Shown here: piece by piece, positions 31,298 to 57,342 of the stretch
How positions within the stretch are numbered: position 1 is the stretch's first letter
Layout of the letters: each line of letters starts with the position of its first letter
From: Phorcus lineatus
Taxonomy: Eukaryota; Mollusca; Gastropoda; Trochida; Trochidae
Direction of reading: 5' to 3'
NCBI GenBank assembly: GCA_921293015.1
Contig: OV121096.1
Coordinates: 24,811,729 to 24,875,728, forward strand
Length of the DNA stretch: 64,000 nt
Notes under the pieces: generated by a model
What the model was told of the DNA's origin: nothing
Seen by the model: only the letters and a program-made list of their open reading frames with translations
The model's database searches: none
Position numbers and translations under genes: made by a program

Positions 31298-31985
31298 AAT
31301 AAAAAGTGACGTGTTCAGAGGTATTTGCTTTGTTGTGTTGTAACACTCAATCAGTTTAGTGTTTTGTGCTAAAATAGCAGACCTGTAACTTTAATGGTAA
31401 GTAAGTTATCGCCAATTCATGGGTGGGGTCAATTGTCCTATTTCCGATCATGCACAAAAACAACTAAATCATAGAATAATCATTAGTTTAATGACAAATT
31501 GTATGTGATCAGTATCTGGTATGTCCGCCGTTGGCATTCAAACATGCCTGAACTGGTCATCTCACAGAAAACGTCAGTCGTCTGATGAAAGCAGCTGGTA
31601 TCTGCCCCCATTCGGCCATCAATGCAAAAATAAGTTGTTGACGTGTGTGTGGTTGGTGTCGACGTTGACGAATCCTTCGATCGATGTAATCCCAGAGGTG
31701 CTCGATGAGATTCATATCGGGAGATCTGGCAGGCCAAGGCAAAACGTGGACGTTATTGACGTTGAGGTACTGTAACGTCACTCTGGCTACATGAGGACGA
31801 GCATTGTCCTGTTGAAAAAGGGTGTTTGAATGGCGTTGTAAGAATGGGATGACCTCTGGCTGTAGGACCCTGTCAATGTATCTCTGTGCGGTCAGATTGC
31901 CGTCAATGACAATGAGGTAGGTGGTTGCGTTGCCGTGTATCCCACCCCACCCATTACGCTGCCTCCAATTCTCAATGGTTCAATA

Positions 31986-37189: not shown

Positions 37190-38050
37190 ATCAAAAGATT
37201 ATCTTTTCGTATCTAAACAGCAAATGACAACTTGACCAAAACTTGTTGAAGTTATTAACATCAGAAGATATTGTTGCTGCATATTTTGTTAATTCATAGT
37301 ATTTGGCAAGTTCCCGTTTGATATCATTGAAATCTGGTTTCTTGTGCTGTGCTCTTCTGTTAAAAATGAGGTTTTTGATAATTATTATGATTATGTTTAA
37401 AGGATAATTATTTCTTTGAGTGTAACCCAGAAGAACAGTTTCCAAGGATATGTTAACATTTATCTAAGCTTCGTTAAACAACCACTCTTTCAATTCATTC
37501 CAAACGGGACGTACATTGATGCATTCCCAGAATAAGTGAACAATAGACTCTTTTTCTTTCAAACAATAACAGCATAAGTCGCTGTCAACGTATCCCATTT
37601 TATATATACATGAATAAGTAGGTAAGATATGATGCAAGATCTGATACTGGAACCATTGAAATTTGGTAGCCTTGATGCATTTAAATGCCGCTAAATTATA
37701 GCTTGAACGTTCACGTTCACAAATGTCATGACCGAATGTATGTTCACATTTTGTAAAATGTTGATTCATAACCATTTGCTTTTGCATTAATATTTTATAA
37801 TAATTTTGGGATCCTTTCGGATATTCCAGCAAGTTGGCCAAGTGAAAGGGAATCAATGGGTTAGAAATCTTGCACAAGTTAACAATATTTTGTTTATGGC
37901 AGTATTTTTTGAAAGATTGTACAATACCTAAATAAAAAAAATTAGCATCAACTGTGTATATATTACAGAAATCTCTATGGGTATAAAATTGCCCATCATG
38001 GTCTATGAAATAATTTATAAATCTTAGGCCTTTATCATTAAGTTTTTTTT
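37190..38050 (-). pseudogene. L1-like LINE C-terminal fragment
   Basis: The minus-strand frame at 37877-37464 encodes KFQWFQYQILHHILP, YKMGYVDSDLCCYC and ESIVHLFWECINVRPVWNEL, the zinc-knuckle region (zf-RVT) found at the C-terminus of L1-type ORF2 proteins. The next frame, 37445-37191, continues it (FNRRAQHKKPDFNDIKRELA, FNKFWSSCHLLF). It lacks the reverse transcriptase core. A stop and shift separate the two frames. Confidence 0.85.
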
Positions 38051-38582
38051 TATAAAGACAGTTTTATGCCCCACTTGTATGTTGTCGTTTAGCCGAGGAG
38101 TTATGGTCCTTTAGAAACAACTGAAAATGTCAATTTTCAAAAAAGACAATGTGTTCCCTTAGATAAAAAGCTGTAAAAATAGCAAGGCCTTGCCCGTATA
38201 TCAGTATCCTACAATACAGCAATGAATAAGCATATCCGGTATCTAGAAAAACACTTGTGCGAATCTAGAAACTCACTACGCAAATATTAACCAAACAAAG
38301 CTATGATTGATGACACTGGTTGGATGTCTTCTTTTATTATGCAATGGTGAAGGTTGTTACATTTTATAGACGTTCGTGGAATATGGTCCTGGTCGTTTAA
38401 CATCAAAAATAATTTTTGGAGCTATAACAAAGCCTTTGCTAACAAACGAAACTGGACATTTTGGTAAAAAAAGTTAACCGATCTTTGTCTTAGCCATTTT
38501 AGTACAAAGTAAGTGCATAATTTTGAACACGTTATGCCATGTAATATTAAGTAATGTTTTGTGATTTTTTTTACAAAATGGA

Positions 38583-50829: not shown

Positions 50830-53800
50830 AATATGTCAAGTAAAATAAATATGGCAAGAGGTGGCCGGACTGATTACATGGCGGCCGACCTGAAACGTTT
50901 TATAGAGGAAGAGATACGGAAGCACACGAATGAACGTGGTCGTGCAGCTTCGAGCCTCTTTGAACGACATAATAAAAAGTGTTGAATTTAATTTGTCGCA
51001 AATTGAGGGAAATAAACAGACAATCAAAATAATCACAGACGACGGAACATGCCTTCGCGAGGAGCCAGACAAAGGACAAAGTTGTACAGCATTGATATAT
51101 GGTATCCCTACCAGAAACAACACGGAGATATCAGCTTGGAAACTACATTGGTATCGATAATGCACAAGATATGCTTTTTGTATATGTGCACCCACTGCCT
51201 CAACTCGGCACAGATCCTACAGGTCGACTGGCCGTTTGCCGGACCTGGGCCCGTGATTGTTAAGTTGGTGACAATTATAAATAGAAAGAAGGTGTTTATT
51301 GCTAGCTTCGAAAATTAGAAACCAAGAGAAATCAATTCGAACGGATTGATAAGTTATGAACCAGACAGGACTTGTAAAATCTTTGTAACAGTGTCACAAC
51401 ATTTTTAAAAAATCCAAAATTTTATACAAATATTGTCTCAATTGTAAATAAGTACCTACTTTCTAAAATAATATGTAGATTTGAACCAAAATATTTTCAA
51501 AATTGTTAATCACGATACACTTTCATGTAATTATGCATATTCCAACAAAATTTTATAAAAATTAGATGATTGGTTCAGGAGTTATTAGCTGGACAGGACT
51601 TGTTAACAGTTTTCATATAAATTTATCAGTTTTCCCCAAAATCCCAAAATGTTTGACGATTTTAAAAGAACATTGGTACTTACACATCATTACATATTTC
51701 TGAATTCCCGTGACAAATTTGAAGTAAACTGGTTGATTAGTTACAAAGTTATGATACGGACACACTGTGTAACGGATGGACCCCATTATAATGCCCCAGG
51801 CAACTTCGTTGTTGCGGGAGATAAAAAAGAGTATATGATACACCATGTATACAAGGATGACTTTGGGTACCTTCTTCTGATTGACATAACATTAAATGAT
51901 ATCCGAATGACCATTTGTTAGGTCTATGGCCCAAATACAGATACACCTAACATTTACAAAATGATTTTGACAAAATTCAAGGAACTTGGAAATGCCTGTT
52001 ATATTCTAGGTGGAGACTTTAATTTGTTGCTGGACCGTGATGGAGATACAAATAATTAAAACAAATTCAATAATCCAAATGCCATAGAAAAGCTATTAGA
52101 ACTTTTAGGAGAAGTAAACCTTATAGACATTTGGCGTGAAAGCAAGGAAGACTTGAAGGTTGGAATGTTTTCCTTATTTTTGAAAATCTGTGTGGTAATG
52201 TAACGTTTGCTAGAATTAACCCGGGACATGGAGCAGATCATTCTTTTATAAATTTTACTATGAACATTGAGAAAAAACACACTAAAACTATTGGAAATTC
52301 AATAACTCCCTGTTACAAGATCATAAATATGTGAAAGACATAAAACAAGTCATATCTGATGTAAAGAAAGAATATGCTTTACCAGTTTGACCAAATCCCT
52401 AATAACAACTTGCAATTTCTGATTGATGACCACCTTTCTATGGATCGCTCCTTATAAAAATTACGTGTAAATCAATAGCCTTTTCTTTTTATAGAAAAAA
52501 AAAACATGATAAAAAAATAAATGACCAAATAGAAGAAATTAAATTTTTTGAAAAATAACTTTGAAGAAAAAACCCATTTCTGTTCTAGATACTAGAAATA
52601 ACGGGAAAAAATTAGATGGCATAATTTGTCGCAAATTGAGGGTGATAAACAGACAATCAAAAGCAAGATTGATAACCAAAGGTGAAACCAAAGACAAGTA
52701 TTGTTGTTGTAATCTTGAAAATAGGAACTACATAACTTAGAATATGAAAGAATTAGCAAGAAATGATGGATTCGTAGTAGTAGTAGTAGTAAATGATACT
52801 TTATGGATATCATAAAATATCCCTACCAATTTGTACCAAAACCTGTATGCTTCAAGAGATGACCTTATAGATGATAAAAACCTCGATGATATACTCGCTA
52901 AGCAAGATGTCAATTAAAGGACAAATGTCGATGTCGATCATCCGGAAACAATGAATTATCACCTGTATCCAAAAAAAAAGGAAAACTCAGATAATTCTTT
53001 AAAACAATGGCGCCCTATTACGCTATTAATCATCAATTGTATACTTTTATCTTCTGTTACTGTGGACAGGTTTAACAAAGTCCTGCCTCAAATTATTGGT
53101 GGAGAATTGGGTTCATTCCTGGCAAATACATTTGGAGACAGCAGTCGCTTGATACATGTATATTATTTGCAATTATACACTTAATCTAGACAAAAACCTG
53201 GCATGCTTTTCATATCAGACTTTGAAAAAGCTTTTGATTCTGTTTCCTGGTCTTTCATATCTAAAACCCGGAAATGTTTTTGATTTGGTGAAAGTATCTA
53301 GAATCCATATTGGATATCCATACTTTTCAAGATATGAAGTCAAGTGTTATTATAAAAGGGAATTTTTCTCCTTGGATAGCTCTAGGCAAGGTGACCAACT
53401 ATCACCTTACATTTTTCTTCTCTGTGCTGAAGTTTATTCAATTCTTGTAAAAAAATTAAACATAAATTATGAAAGGTTTGACAATTGATATTGTAGATTA
53501 TTTACTTGCACAATTGGCAGATGATGTATGATTTCTCTTGGACGGTGCATTTGAATCCTTTGAGGAAACTATAGCCACTCTTGATACTATTGCAAAGATT
53601 TCGGGTTAAGAATAAACTTTGATAAAACAAAAGTAATTTGGATAGGATCCACACACAAAATTGTAACATAAAATTAAAACCCGATTTGAATATGGCATGA
53701 AACCCAGAAACCTTCAGAATTCTTGGCATAATGTTCCCCACAAACTGTGATTACATGACTAAGCTCAACCATGAAAGCGAAATCTTTGAGATTGAACAAA

Positions 53801-54410
53801 CTTTAAACAAATGGACGAATAAAATTATTACGCAAATGGGCAAAATGGCAGTAATAATTTCAATGCACATTTCAAAACTAAACTTCCAGTTCCTTACTCT
53901 CCAAAACCCCTCTGATGAAATAATTGAAAAAATAAATTCCTTTCTTTTCAAGTTATTGTGGGATAACAAACCAGATGAAATAAAGAGAACAGTTGCTTGT
54001 GAAAAAATTGGCAAAGGAGGAGTTGGAATGAAAGATATTTATGCTTATGTTGACTCTTTAAAAGTAATCTGGATAAAGTAATTGGAAACAAATGGAAAAG
54101 TTTAATAACAAAAACTGTTGCAATTTTCCTGATATACTCATTATCTGATGTGATTTTCCAAGAAAGATTGCACAAAAATCACAGAACCTTTTTGGGAGAT
54201 TGTCTTCTTGTCTTCTCGAAATATAGTCACATGGTAAGGCCAAATAACTATGGAGAGTTCTTTTGAGAACCTTTTCTTTACAATAACCATATTTCTATCA
54301 ATAGATAATTTAATAACTCTCCTGCCAAATAACGGTACAACATAGACACAAGATAACAGGACCAAGTTCCTGACGATTGCAAGATACAAAATGTAAAATA
54401 AAAACAATAA
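50830..54410 (+). pseudogene. L1-like LINE, near full span but broken
   Basis: An ORF1-like start lies at about 50833 (MSSKINMARGGRTDYMAADL). Then come an RRM-like block (ALIYGIPTRNNTEIS), an APE-type endonuclease at 51730-52160 (VYGPNTDTPNIYK, GGDFNLLLDRDGD, NLIDIWRES), and reverse transcriptase blocks at 52960-53620 (QWRPITLL, SDFEKAFDSVSWSFIS, LAQLADDV with the catalytic DD at about 53516). The downstream part (RILGIMFPTN, FLFKLLWDNKPDEIKRTVAC) runs on to about 54400. Many stops and shifts, including TGA right after LADDV, and a shortened endonuclease-to-RT segment. It ends about 550 bp before the fusion gene. Confidence 0.85.
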
Positions 54411-54961
54411 AACATTTTTAAAAATTTTTTAATTGTACATGAGGCACACTATTTATGAGACATACATCGTACCCACGCCGTAACAATAGTTTATATATCT
54501 GATGCAGACAGAATATTGAATTTCAATTGATTTTGTTTGAAAAAGTTACATTACTTATACTTAAGTAAATTTCACGTGCGATTTCGGTCTCGACAACATT
54601 CATGAAGGTGCTGTTTGACTTTCATCTAAAACTTATACTTGTCATGAATATTTTAGGTATTTATAGTTATTAAGAAGAATGTTTAAATGAATGTCATCCC
54701 AAATGGTGTTTTTAAACATATTTTTTTAAAAGCAAAAATGAAAACCATAAGATAACCGAGTGTCTCTTTTATGTCACAGAACACTACAGGCAAAGTATGT
54801 CACAGTTCATTTAAAAATTGCAACTAGACATGTATCGTATCATGACCATAAACATATCAGGCATCTGATAAAAAGAAGATACCCACTAAACGCCTGCTGA
54901 CTAAAATTACAGGAAATAAAGATATGATAAAATAATCATGACATTGTTTAATATTTTTCAG

Positions 54962-55859
54962 ATGTTGAAAGGATCCCTGGCCTTCATAGGATGGACGGTA
55001 GCATCGTTTATCTGCCACCAAACCGCCAAAACCTTCCTGAGATCAGCAACAACTGACACACAAGTAGTCAGTGGGGTCTTTTGGGCAGCTTTGGTTACAG
55101 CTTCTCAAGCTGTCATGTGTCTTCTTCTCACTACTGTAGAGTTTGGGGGACCGCCATGGGTCTTCAAGGTGAAGGTCGTCACCCACCTTGCTGCAACAAT
55201 GGCTACCAACTACAGCATGACCCTCATTGATGCATCTTCAACCTTTGCTGTTAAACTCTTTGAACCCGTAACAAGCGCCATTGTGCAGCGATTGGTGCTC
55301 AAAACCAAGCTGAATTCATCCATCTTCATAAGTCTACCAACCATAGTTGGAGGTGCCATTATGTTTTGTGGTTCATCGGTAAACAGCTCTGCTCTTTCCC
55401 TTGGAGGTATTATGGCTCTTGTAAGCAACGTCATGCTCGGCTTCAGAAACGTTGCCATCAAACTGGAGTCTGAAGACAGCACCAAGCAAATGATGAAGCT
55501 CAGAGGAAGGGGGGCACTTGTTATTGTGCCTGCAAGCATTAGACTCTTACTTGGACTTTACTCTTATATGAACACGCAATCAAATACATGGGTTACTCTC
55601 AGTTCAGCCCTTATCTTAACCAGTGTCTTCCACGTCCTTTACTCCTTCATATCCACTAACATTGTTCTGCGGTATATGAGTGTGCTGAGTCACTCCATCG
55701 CAAATATCATGAAGAGGGTTCTGGTTGTGTCTTTACTCTTCTCTGTAGGACAAAGGGAAGCAACTCTGATAAACTTTTTAGGACTTGGAGTGTGCACCCT
55801 TGGTCTGTTAGCCTATACACTGAGCCAGCATTCTTTTCAATCATTTTGGGGAAAAATAG
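54962..55859 (+). CDS. Fusion exon A: TPT/SLC35-type transporter
   Basis: Open from 54938; an acceptor TTTAATATTTTTCAG ends at 54961, so the exon likely starts at the ATG 54962. Numbering from 54938, family hallmarks are FAVKLFEPVTSAIVQ (103-117, the conserved Lys and Glu-Pro), GFRNVAIK (168-175), HVLYSFIST (232-240) and SHSIANIMKRVLVV (251-264). The Lys-Arg pair (259-260) is the phosphate-binding pair of structurally studied triose-phosphate translocators. The domain is about 300 residues, normal for the family. Without splicing, translation ends three codons past the donor (GKG, TAG at 55868). Substrate cannot be fixed from sequence; PEP is inferred from the fusion partner, with nucleotide sugar or another sugar phosphate as alternatives. 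Confidence 0.85.
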
Positions 55860-57342
55860 GTAAAGGATAGTTCTTATTTCACTTCTTTTGTGACATTAAA
55901 CGAGTGAGATGCGCAAATTACGCCTTTGGGCAATATCTCAGTCTGTTTTCGTACATTAAACAAAACAGCCCTAAATGAATGCTATTAATTTTCAATTCTA
56001 CATGTTACTTTTTATGTCAATAATTATACACTGTTGTTATTCTAAAGTTGAATTTTGATTTGGTTAATCTTTATTTTTTGCAGACGTGCGACTAGGATTA
56101 AGAATGATGACTTTTCTAATGGCGTCCATGTTTTGCAGCATACTTGTTTACATTTCGACTCAGAAAATGCATTCATTTGACGTCAACACCAACGTTTCTG
56201 ACTTGATAAGGAATAACAGCTTTCAAATAGAGCGGGATCGATTTCAATTGAAGAACGAAGAGAAAATAAGTGATTTTCTACAAAGAAGACTTATAAATAC
56301 TCCAACAGAAACAAACATCATATCACCATTACTAACAACCACGTTCGATGTCATAAACGAAGCACAGCGAGTTCAGATCAACTTATTCTCTGATATATTA
56401 TCTAAGTTTCAATATGCCATGCTGTTCGACGTGGCTGCTTTTGAAAATAAAGGCGATCCAGCAATTACAGCAGGGGAAGCCTATTTGATCGGACGCCTTG
56501 GACTAAAGCTCGTCTATTACTGTAACTTTTATGCATGCTCTGAGAAAAACCTTGATCATGCTAAAGAACTAAGTGCGAAATATTCACCTGAAAATATGGT
56601 TATTTTGCTTCAAGGTGGTGGCAATATTGTGGGATATCCATATAATGATCGTCTGCGTGGCGAGGTTTTAAAGCGTTTTCCAAAATTTCACAAAGTGTTA
56701 TTCTCCCAAAGTATATACCTAACCAAAGACAAAAAACATGTCGAATTTTGTAAGAAAATTTACAATAACGATGACACCTTCACAATGATTCTCAGAGATA
56801 AACAGTCCTTGAGATACGCCCAAGAATACTTCTCTGGTAGAAACAAGATCATGATGGCACCAGACATGGCGTTCCAGATCGGTCATGTGGATCGGTTTCT
56901 GTCACCTTCATTTGACGTTCTATGGATAAAACGTTCCGATGGAGAAAGTCCTGGCTACAAGATGCCCACATTTCCAAAAGGAATTACAGTGCATGTTGCG
57001 GACTGGTGGAAATGGAAAACGCCTCATGGTGAAACTACAATGGAAACAGCGTTCTTGATGGCAAACAATGGCTTGGTGTTCCTTCAACGAGGCAGAGTTG
57101 TTGTCACTGATCGTCTTCATGGGCATATTCTCAGCGTCTTGCTTGATATACCACATGTTCTGATTGATAATTCTTATAAAAAGGTATCGGCTTTTCACAA
57201 CACCTGGACTAAAGGTCTGGAAAACACACTAATGGCAAACAATGCAGAGCATGCAGTAGAATTGGCTGTTCAGTTAATAGAGAAATATAATGACACCCTA
57301 CCATCAATAGTCCCCTTTATGGATATCAAGGAAAATGCATAG
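54962..57342 (+). CDS. TPT transporter-pyruvyl transferase fusion protein
   Basis: Exons 54962-55859 and 56084-57342 join in frame across a 224 bp intron: donor ATAG|GTAAAG, acceptor TTTTTTGCAG, junction codon g+ac (Asp). The product is about 718 residues. The first half is a TPT/SLC35-type transporter of about ten membrane helices; the second is a PF04230-type polysaccharide pyruvyl transferase behind a hydrophobic segment. Known biology: TPT-family members include PEP translocators; pyruvyl transferases transfer a ketal-linked pyruvate from PEP to galactose or other sugars; fission yeast uses a separate Golgi TPT-family transporter plus Pvg1 for this. Inference: this protein brings cytosolic PEP into the Golgi lumen and uses it there. 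Pyruvylated galactose has been reported on Aplysia nerve glycolipids, so a molluscan substrate is plausible. The ATG at 54962 directly follows an acceptor, so a 5' exon probably exists. Confidence 0.78.
55860..56083 (+). other. Intron joining the two halves of the fusion gene
   Basis: 224 bp, starting GTAAAG and ending in a T-rich tract plus GCAG. It is AT-rich, unlike the exons. Retention brings in an early stop at 55868-55870, so splicing would decide between a transporter alone and the fusion. Confidence 0.75.
56084..57342 (+). CDS. Fusion exon B: polysaccharide pyruvyl transferase
   Basis: Encodes about 419 residues (numbered here from the codon at 56086). It opens with a hydrophobic helix (TFLMASMFCSILVYIS, 9-24), then a stem to about residue 105. 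The catalytic domain covers about 109-400. It has the N-terminal motif LFDVAAFENKGDPAI (113-127), the glycine motif VILLQGGGNIVGYPYND (172-188), and TDRLHGHILSVLLDIPHVL (341-359) followed by DNSYKKVSAFHNTW. The His in RLHGH is conserved in the family. Domain length and motif order match complete enzymes, so no truncation is suspected. In-frame ATGs at 56104 and 56107 could start a stand-alone type II Golgi protein if the exon had its own promoter. The family is well known in bacteria, fungi and some algae; in animals its distribution is patchy. Confidence 0.88.

Follow-up and report, generated by a model that had tools for sequence, protein, structure and literature searches.

In fission yeast, passages of the published accounts describe the pyruvyltransferase Pvg1 as reliant on the Golgi phosphoenolpyruvate (PEP) transporters Pet1p and Pet2p (PMC4872226, PMC6801904). 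Elsewhere, Golgi transporters and glycosyltransferases, for example SLC35A2/A3 with MGATs or B4GalTs, form complexes, according to two reports (PMC6453868, PMC9368800). Among molluscs, the sea hare Aplysia kurodai carries pyruvylated glycosphingolipids, as a passage of one further paper states (PMC6994554). Here we describe a gene of the gastropod Phorcus lineatus in which a transporter of the TPT family appears to be joined to a Pvg1-like pyruvyltransferase. It lies in a 64,000-nucleotide stretch of contig OV121096.1 (C37:24811729-24875728), which in its full length we call the window. We believe that this gene probably makes one bifunctional Golgi membrane protein, in which a PEP importer is followed by an extra membrane helix and then by a pyruvyltransferase facing the lumen. 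The computed basis for this reading is the presence of near-full-length domains, an in-frame phase-1 splice in eight of nine paralogous pairs, purifying selection, and the residues and fold of the enzyme.

The snail gene shares with the Pvg1p/Pet1p/Pet2p system, as passages of the yeast papers present it, the enzyme family, the catalytic residues and, on the yeast side, the supply of PEP by membrane transporters. In contrast, where yeast has three separate proteins there is here one predicted chain of 718 amino acids, and the snail enzyme family is expanded (18 matches), varies at the position of Pvg1 H168 and, in the window copy, has Leu for C373. Like the SLC35A2/A3 complexes, the predicted protein would hold a donor importer beside a donor-using enzyme, whereas those complexes are non-covalent, are assembled from separate gene products and handle nucleotide sugars instead of PEP. 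Among the open-access papers listed, no title or abstract opening showed a fusion of the TPT and PS_pyruv_trans families, and no title, abstract opening or consulted passage named an animal pyruvyltransferase gene. Both parts and the pathway were already known; the one-chain arrangement is not known to us, every description that we found having the two steps on different proteins.

The two longest stop-to-stop frames of the window are 54920-55867 (316 amino acids) and 56068-57339 (424 amino acids). In Pfam searches, the first matches TPT (PF03151) over profile positions 7-290 of 291 (E 2.4e-17, 63.7 bits against a cut-off of 30) and the second matches PS_pyruv_trans (PF04230) over positions 59-280 of 280 (E 3.5e-18, 67 bits against a cut-off of 25.3). 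A preliminary description of this DNA, made from its letters alone, had joined two exons in frame at 55859/56084, and the join holds: with the donor 55859/GTAAAG and the acceptor TTTTTTGCAG/56084 (a slash marks the splice point throughout), the splice is phase 1, splits the codon of Asp300 and opens a single frame of 718 amino acids in which both families score above their Pfam cut-offs. By a generic splice-site matrix, the acceptor scores 11.2, and such sites occur about 7 times per 100 kb over the two strands of the window; the donor scores 5.9, and sites scoring at least 5.7 occur about 2.5 times per kb. The chance of a random phase-1 donor and phase-1 acceptor in the two short stretches is roughly 0.031 x 0.025, or about 0.0008, for the window copy and, at the site densities of the window, 0.0008 for the C9 and 0.003 for the C7a paralogue introduced below, estimates that assume independence and for which thresholds and stretch lengths were chosen after the sites had been seen. 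The G+C content is 0.45 in the TPT exon, 0.39 in the enzyme exon, 0.29 in the intron and 0.35 in the whole window. In eight of nine copies (three C37, four C7 and C15), the first ATG in the TPT exon has CAG directly 5' of it, C9 differing with CCAGGA/ATG, which suggests that the TPT exon is probably not the first and that an exon of 5' untranslated region probably precedes it.

We scanned 958 Mb of the genome for relatives. The PF04230 profile gave 18 matches, all above cut-off. With the window TPT protein as query there were 12 matches at E up to 10, of which ten had E of 4.2e-8 or below and the remaining two were not significant (E 1.5 and 4.7); these counts, taken from the best-scoring candidates only (15 of 15 scored), are lower bounds, and more distant relatives may be missed. 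Because all ten significant TPT relatives found sit upstream of, and on the same strand as, a PS_pyruv_trans match, we reject chance adjacency of transporter and enzyme. The pairs comprise three in C37 (the window copy, C37b at 24.93 Mb and C37c at 6.73 Mb), one in C9, four in C7 (C7a, C7b, C7c and C7g) and one in C15, and in C39 the TPT survives only as a decayed fragment with five stops, upstream of an enzyme match. Among the matches found, the TPT clade is never intact without the enzyme. Outside the genome, at 82 loci of enzyme relatives (the best 80 of 194 prokaryotic loci and 2 on viral contigs), flanks of up to 3 kb held no TPT match at E 1e-5.

The phase-1 donor and the phase-1 acceptor are kept in eight of the nine intact pairs. 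The three C37 copies have an identical donor (TAG/GTAAA) and acceptor (TTTTTGCAG/A), and their introns measure 183-251 bp, the window intron being 95% identical to that of C37b and the C37c intron 69-74% identical to these two. C9, both halves of which are 39% identical to those of the window, has the donor AGC/GTAAGT and the acceptor TTTCAG/AGACAA, again in phase 1. The four fused C7 copies, about 35-37% identical to the window, combine the donor CAA/GTAGGT with acceptors TTTTTCAG/ATATAC or TTTTCAG/ATACAC, also in phase 1, across introns of 3.2-9.7 kb. Because the pair, the intron phase and the frame are kept among diverged copies in one genome, sequence comparison gives good support to a fused gene of transporter and pyruvyltransferase, as had been proposed for this DNA. 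Orthologues that are always two genes had been named in advance as evidence against such a fusion; among the paralogues of this genome, that pattern was not found.

Both halves are under purifying selection, the ratio of nonsynonymous to synonymous divergence (dN/dS) over six paralogue pairs lying at 0.17-0.43 in the TPT half and, for the same pairs, at 0.21-0.30 in the enzyme half. We built an enzyme tree from 15 of the 18 host copies, omitting the three truncated ones, and 17 outside sequences (16 prokaryotic and one from a viral contig) of 80 usable, two fetched loci having given no usable frame. Its first split sets the C37/C39 group, three fused copies and one with the decayed TPT (99/100), apart from all other copies, six with TPT and five without (100/99); the tree-building software flagged long branches that converge on one outgroup row. 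When the tree is rooted on bacterial sequences, both sides of this split contain fused copies, which points to an ancestral fusion: on the simplest reading, by parsimony, fusion preceded the expansion of the family and several TPT losses followed, and C39 looks like a case in which the TPT was lost and the enzyme kept. Trees of the TPT and enzyme halves of the nine pairs agree on the main groups C37 and C7, the placement of C9 and C15 not being firm. We found no support for the enzyme having come recently, by horizontal transfer, from a sequenced prokaryote: the best 80 of 194 prokaryotic loci are 27-34% identical, and in the tree the 17 outside sequences are separated from the 15 host copies. 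Viral relatives accounted for 2 of the 27 pattern hits obtained with the enzyme and for 0 of the 16 obtained with the TPT.

Three observations on individual copies may be recorded alongside this history. The enzyme exon at the C39 locus (L022 / L041) is 70% identical to that of the window, with a dN/dS of 0.19 against it. Between the window copy and C37c, synonymous divergence (dS) is 0.12 in the TPT exon and 0.26 in the enzyme exon, the lower TPT value hinting that gene conversion has acted on the transporter half within the C37 group. At C37:25062783 and 25088547 (L010 7661-8605 and L011 7922-8866) there are two near-identical pyruvyltransferase copies, 99.7% identical in amino acids and about 26 kb apart, both without the N-terminal part that carries the catalytic Asp; they probably arose by recent duplication of a truncated copy.

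Among solved structures, the enzyme half matches fission-yeast Pvg1 (5AX7; phmmer E 5.8e-35). Passages of the Pvg1 papers give D106, R217 and R337 as catalytic and D240, L338 and H339 as further pocket residues (PMC4872226, PMC6801904). All six equivalents tested are present in the window copy; those of R217, D240, R337, L338 and H339 are found in 18 of 18 copies and that of D106 in 15 of 18, being absent from the three N-terminally truncated ones. An AlphaFold model of the enzyme half, made with the window sequence and 41 relatives from public contigs (mean predicted local distance difference test score, pLDDT, 84.3), consists of an N-terminal helix at residues 2-29 with low confidence, then a stem, then a confident catalytic domain. 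The best Foldseek match of this model is again 5AX7 (E 1.7e-22; template-modelling score 0.85 by target length and 0.68 by query length), and, as modelled, the enzyme half has the two-domain fold of the ketal-pyruvyltransferase Pvg1. Sequence match, residues and modelled fold strongly support its identification as a predicted PEP-dependent pyruvyltransferase, as the preliminary description had proposed.

For the transporter half, the sole solved relative found was the plastid-type TPT of Galdieria (5Y78; phmmer E 1.9e-10), aligned over TPT residues 75-291. Six pocket positions are given for the plant TPT in passages of the literature, namely Lys203, Lys359, Arg360, Tyr338, Phe262 and His184 (PMC6981301). 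Across the nine paralogues, Lys203, Lys359 and Arg360 are kept in all nine and Tyr338 in eight; these residues, like PF03151, are shared with the plastid translocators. The three basic residues presumably hold the phosphate. In contrast to 5Y78, the snail protein is an animal, non-plastid one that has Thr for His185 and Leu for Phe263 (Phe262 of the plant protein, Leu in nine of nine) and continues at its C-terminus into an extra helix and the enzyme. Phe262 is held to bar PEP from the plant TPT, PEP-carrying relatives having Ser or Ala there, and the PEP-carrying diatom TPT2 retains Phe and changes His and Tyr (passages of PMC6981301). Leu at this position is without the ring, yet it is not among the residues reported for PEP carriers. 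We take PEP to be the likely cargo of the TPT half.

Directly after the splice, the weakly basic DVRLGLR (net +1) leads into a strongly hydrophobic segment, which has the top hydrophobic score of the whole fusion on the Goldman-Engelman-Steitz (GES) scale and falls within the low-confidence helix 2-29 of the enzyme model. The 393 residues past this predicted helix contain no further hydrophobic segment, and three of the six N-glycosylation sequons in the fusion protein lie there (336, 343 and 702). A charged-then-hydrophobic head is also present in five of the eight copies without their own TPT (C11, C12, C7d, C7e and C7f), which fits type II enzymes able to act alone. TPT/SLC35E-like drug-metabolite transporters have ten membrane helices, and TPT-class proteins have both termini in the cytosol. 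An even number of helices, whether eight or ten, followed by one extra helix would place the enzyme in the lumen.

Based on these observations, we propose the following model, in which the spliced mRNA would be the main product of the gene and the protein would reside in the Golgi. First, the N-terminal TPT/SLC35-type half, crossing the membrane an even number of times so that its two ends are cytosolic, would swap cytosolic PEP for lumenal phosphate. The phase-1 splice would supply one membrane helix, preceded on the cytosolic side by a short linker of weakly basic character, and the C-terminal Pvg1-like domain would thus be lumenal, beside the exit of the transporter. There, the enzyme would place the pyruvyl group of PEP as a cyclic ketal on a terminal sugar, which is probably galactose. 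Finally, the phosphate freed by this reaction would serve as the counter-substrate of the transporter. Hypothetically, PEP may also be channelled between the two halves. The features on which the model draws are collected in Table 1.

Table 1. Positions of the predicted fusion gene and its features, counted from the first letter of the window
Feature	Position	Strand	Remarks
Probable 3' splice site (TTTTTCAG/ATG) directly before the start codon	54938..54961	+	CAG/ATG in paralogues
TPT-family transporter exon	54962..55859	+	residues 1-299 and first base of codon 300; PF03151; PDB 5y78
Lys98, equivalent to Galdieria TPT Lys204 / Arabidopsis Lys203, substrate pocket	55253..55255	+	K in 9/9
Leu159, at the Arabidopsis TPT Phe262 position	55436..55438	+	L in 9/9
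Lys251-Arg252, equivalent to Arabidopsis Lys359/Arg360, substrate pocket	55712..55717	+	KR in 9/9
Intron, GT-AG, phase 1, 224 bp	55860..56083	+	sites and phase shared by two close copies (183 and 251 bp) and by C9 and four C7 copies, whose introns are longer
Pvg1-like pyruvyltransferase exon with its own predicted membrane anchor, stop included	56084..57342	+	PF04230; 5AX7
Hydrophobic segment MMTFLMASMFCSILVYIST at residues 307-325 of the fusion, a predicted additional membrane helix/signal anchor	56104..56160	+	GES 2.24
Asp equivalent to Pvg1 catalytic D106	56455..56457	+	D in 15/18
Arg equivalent to Pvg1 R217 (PEP contact)	56794..56796	+	18/18
Arg-Leu-His equivalent to Pvg1 R337-L338-H339 (PEP contact)	57112..57120	+	18/18

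A number of findings weigh against one bifunctional PEP-importing protein, and we give them here together with the explanations they would favour. Within the enzyme, the position of Pvg1 H168 is Asn in five C37 copies, that of the window included, and Met in C39, the other 12 having His; mutation of H168 in Pvg1 changed acceptor use, according to passages of the Pvg1 literature. The C68-C373 disulphide of Pvg1 is unmatched, C373 being Leu in the window copy and C68 lying outside the alignment; this bond was seen in the Pvg1 crystal and is not known to define the family. For the TPT half, a GES hydropathy scan gave eight segments and not ten, and a single-sequence model with ten long helices had a mean pLDDT of 42.5, too low to be usable.

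The alternative that survives best, which we nevertheless consider unlikely, is that one locus gives several products: the fusion transcript together with a stand-alone transporter, made when polyadenylation falls within the intron or the intron is retained, and/or a type II enzyme that stands by itself and begins at a Met before the extra helix. An early end to the transporter would be allowed by the in-frame stop that starts 6-9 bases past the donor in the window copy, C37b and C9, and also by the window intron, in which two ATTAAA hexamers occur within 224 bp against 0.57 A[AT]TAAA expected, so that early polyadenylation may occur. However, the number of codons from donor to stop, the split codon counted, is 3 in the window copy, 2 in C37b, 31 in C37c, 2 in C9, 11 in C7a, 21 in C7b, 11 in C7c and 11 in C7g, and no such stop is common to different clades. 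This disfavours a stand-alone TPT ending just past the donor, because a transporter made by itself should have retained its C-terminus. A separate start for the enzyme is made possible by a Met that follows the split codon at a distance of 1 or 7 codons in seven of the eight phase-matched pairs; moreover, the phase-1 acceptor is kept at this place in three of the eight TPT-less copies (C12, C7e and C7f) and in C39. Eight of the 18 enzyme copies are without their own TPT (C37d, C37e, C11, C12, C7d, C7e, C7f and C7h, the last sitting 2.4 kb behind C7g), and in C39 the enzyme exon is intact although the TPT, about 0.4 kb upstream of it, has decayed to a remnant; the enzyme is thus able to survive without the transporter. 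Against separate starts, the second exon of C9 has no Met ahead of its hydrophobic helix and must join something upstream for that helix to be made, and the short introns of the C37 copies could hardly accommodate a second promoter together with its first exon.

It is rather improbable, in our judgement, that the fusion is real but carries another phosphorylated compound or a nucleotide sugar, with the PEP of the enzyme supplied otherwise or its chemistry different. The pocket His (His184 in Arabidopsis, His185 in Galdieria) is Thr in all nine paralogues, the pocket Phe is Leu, and the K...KR pattern can be made out by eye in the same genome in ordinary TPT genes, which are made up of several exons; it was not seen by eye in another gene of the genome, which we take to be SLC35C1-like. 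As the pattern is common to ordinary TPT exons and the pocket His is Thr, K...KR is not specific for PEP. On the other hand, every tested PEP-pocket residue is kept in the enzyme, and joining a transporter to an enzyme that consumes PEP in the lumen would be in keeping with a demand for PEP there. Of the earlier proposal of a PEP transporter, the part that stands is its plausibility, by way of the kept phosphate-contact Lys/Lys/Arg and the change from Phe to Leu, whereas, given K...KR in ordinary TPT exons and the change from His to Thr, the pocket is not specific for PEP.

Less credible still is the view that two neighbouring genes were co-duplicated as a cluster, the splice match being an inherited decoration and the proteins separate partners like Pet1/Pet2 and Pvg1. 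The existence of enzyme-only copies and the distance of 3.2-9.7 kb between the halves of the C7 pairs speak for it, as does C15, where the best donor (CAG/GTAGCA) is phase 2 and mismatched to a phase-1 acceptor that is itself weak (score 4.0). The TPT exon of C15 falls below Pfam detection at E 0.001. However, a phase-1 donor and acceptor are held in lineages about 35-51% identical, a pair expected by chance in three lineages at about 2e-9 if independent and with thresholds and stretches set after the sites were seen, and the TPT has no stop common to the clades. At the C15 locus (L025; 2039-2899 and 495-1769, both on the minus strand), a GC donor, AAAG/GCAGGT, a few bases earlier would give phase 1; its use as a phase-1 site is speculation.

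The host had been called an animal, a mollusc, from the earlier inspection, and the genome agrees: 150 homeobox matches were scored among 354 candidates, and the beta-sandwich domain of molluscan haemocyanin, which is typical of molluscs, was matched 16 times. The haemocyanin matches fall into two groups of eight on one contig, at C12:7646582-7661095 (minus strand) and 16557773-16572398 (plus strand), each probably one gene. Elsewhere in the window, broken frames resembling reverse transcriptase, named by eye, lie just upstream of the gene at 53153-54266 (plus strand), the two scanned frames of that region giving no convincing Pfam match; a zf-RVT fragment of a reverse-transcriptase element is present at 37467-38063 (minus strand) and a DDE_3 transposase fragment at 31560-31979 (minus strand).

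If the gene does make one bifunctional Golgi protein, a wider picture can be drawn, which we put forward tentatively and at somewhat less than even credence. There may be an ancient, expanded molluscan family of self-feeding Golgi pyruvyltransferases, with the importer in the same chain and lumenal phosphate driving exchange, the copies of which have since diverged in acceptor choice (Asn or Met at the H168 position in one clade), and this pyruvate-based system of acidic glycans might do part of what sialic acid does in vertebrates. The family gives candidates, in one gene, for the pyruvylating enzyme of molluscs and for the route of its donor into the Golgi. If true, it would be a covalent form of a transporter-transferase pairing that is otherwise described as non-covalent complexes, and the coupling of donor import to donor use would become testable by separating the halves.

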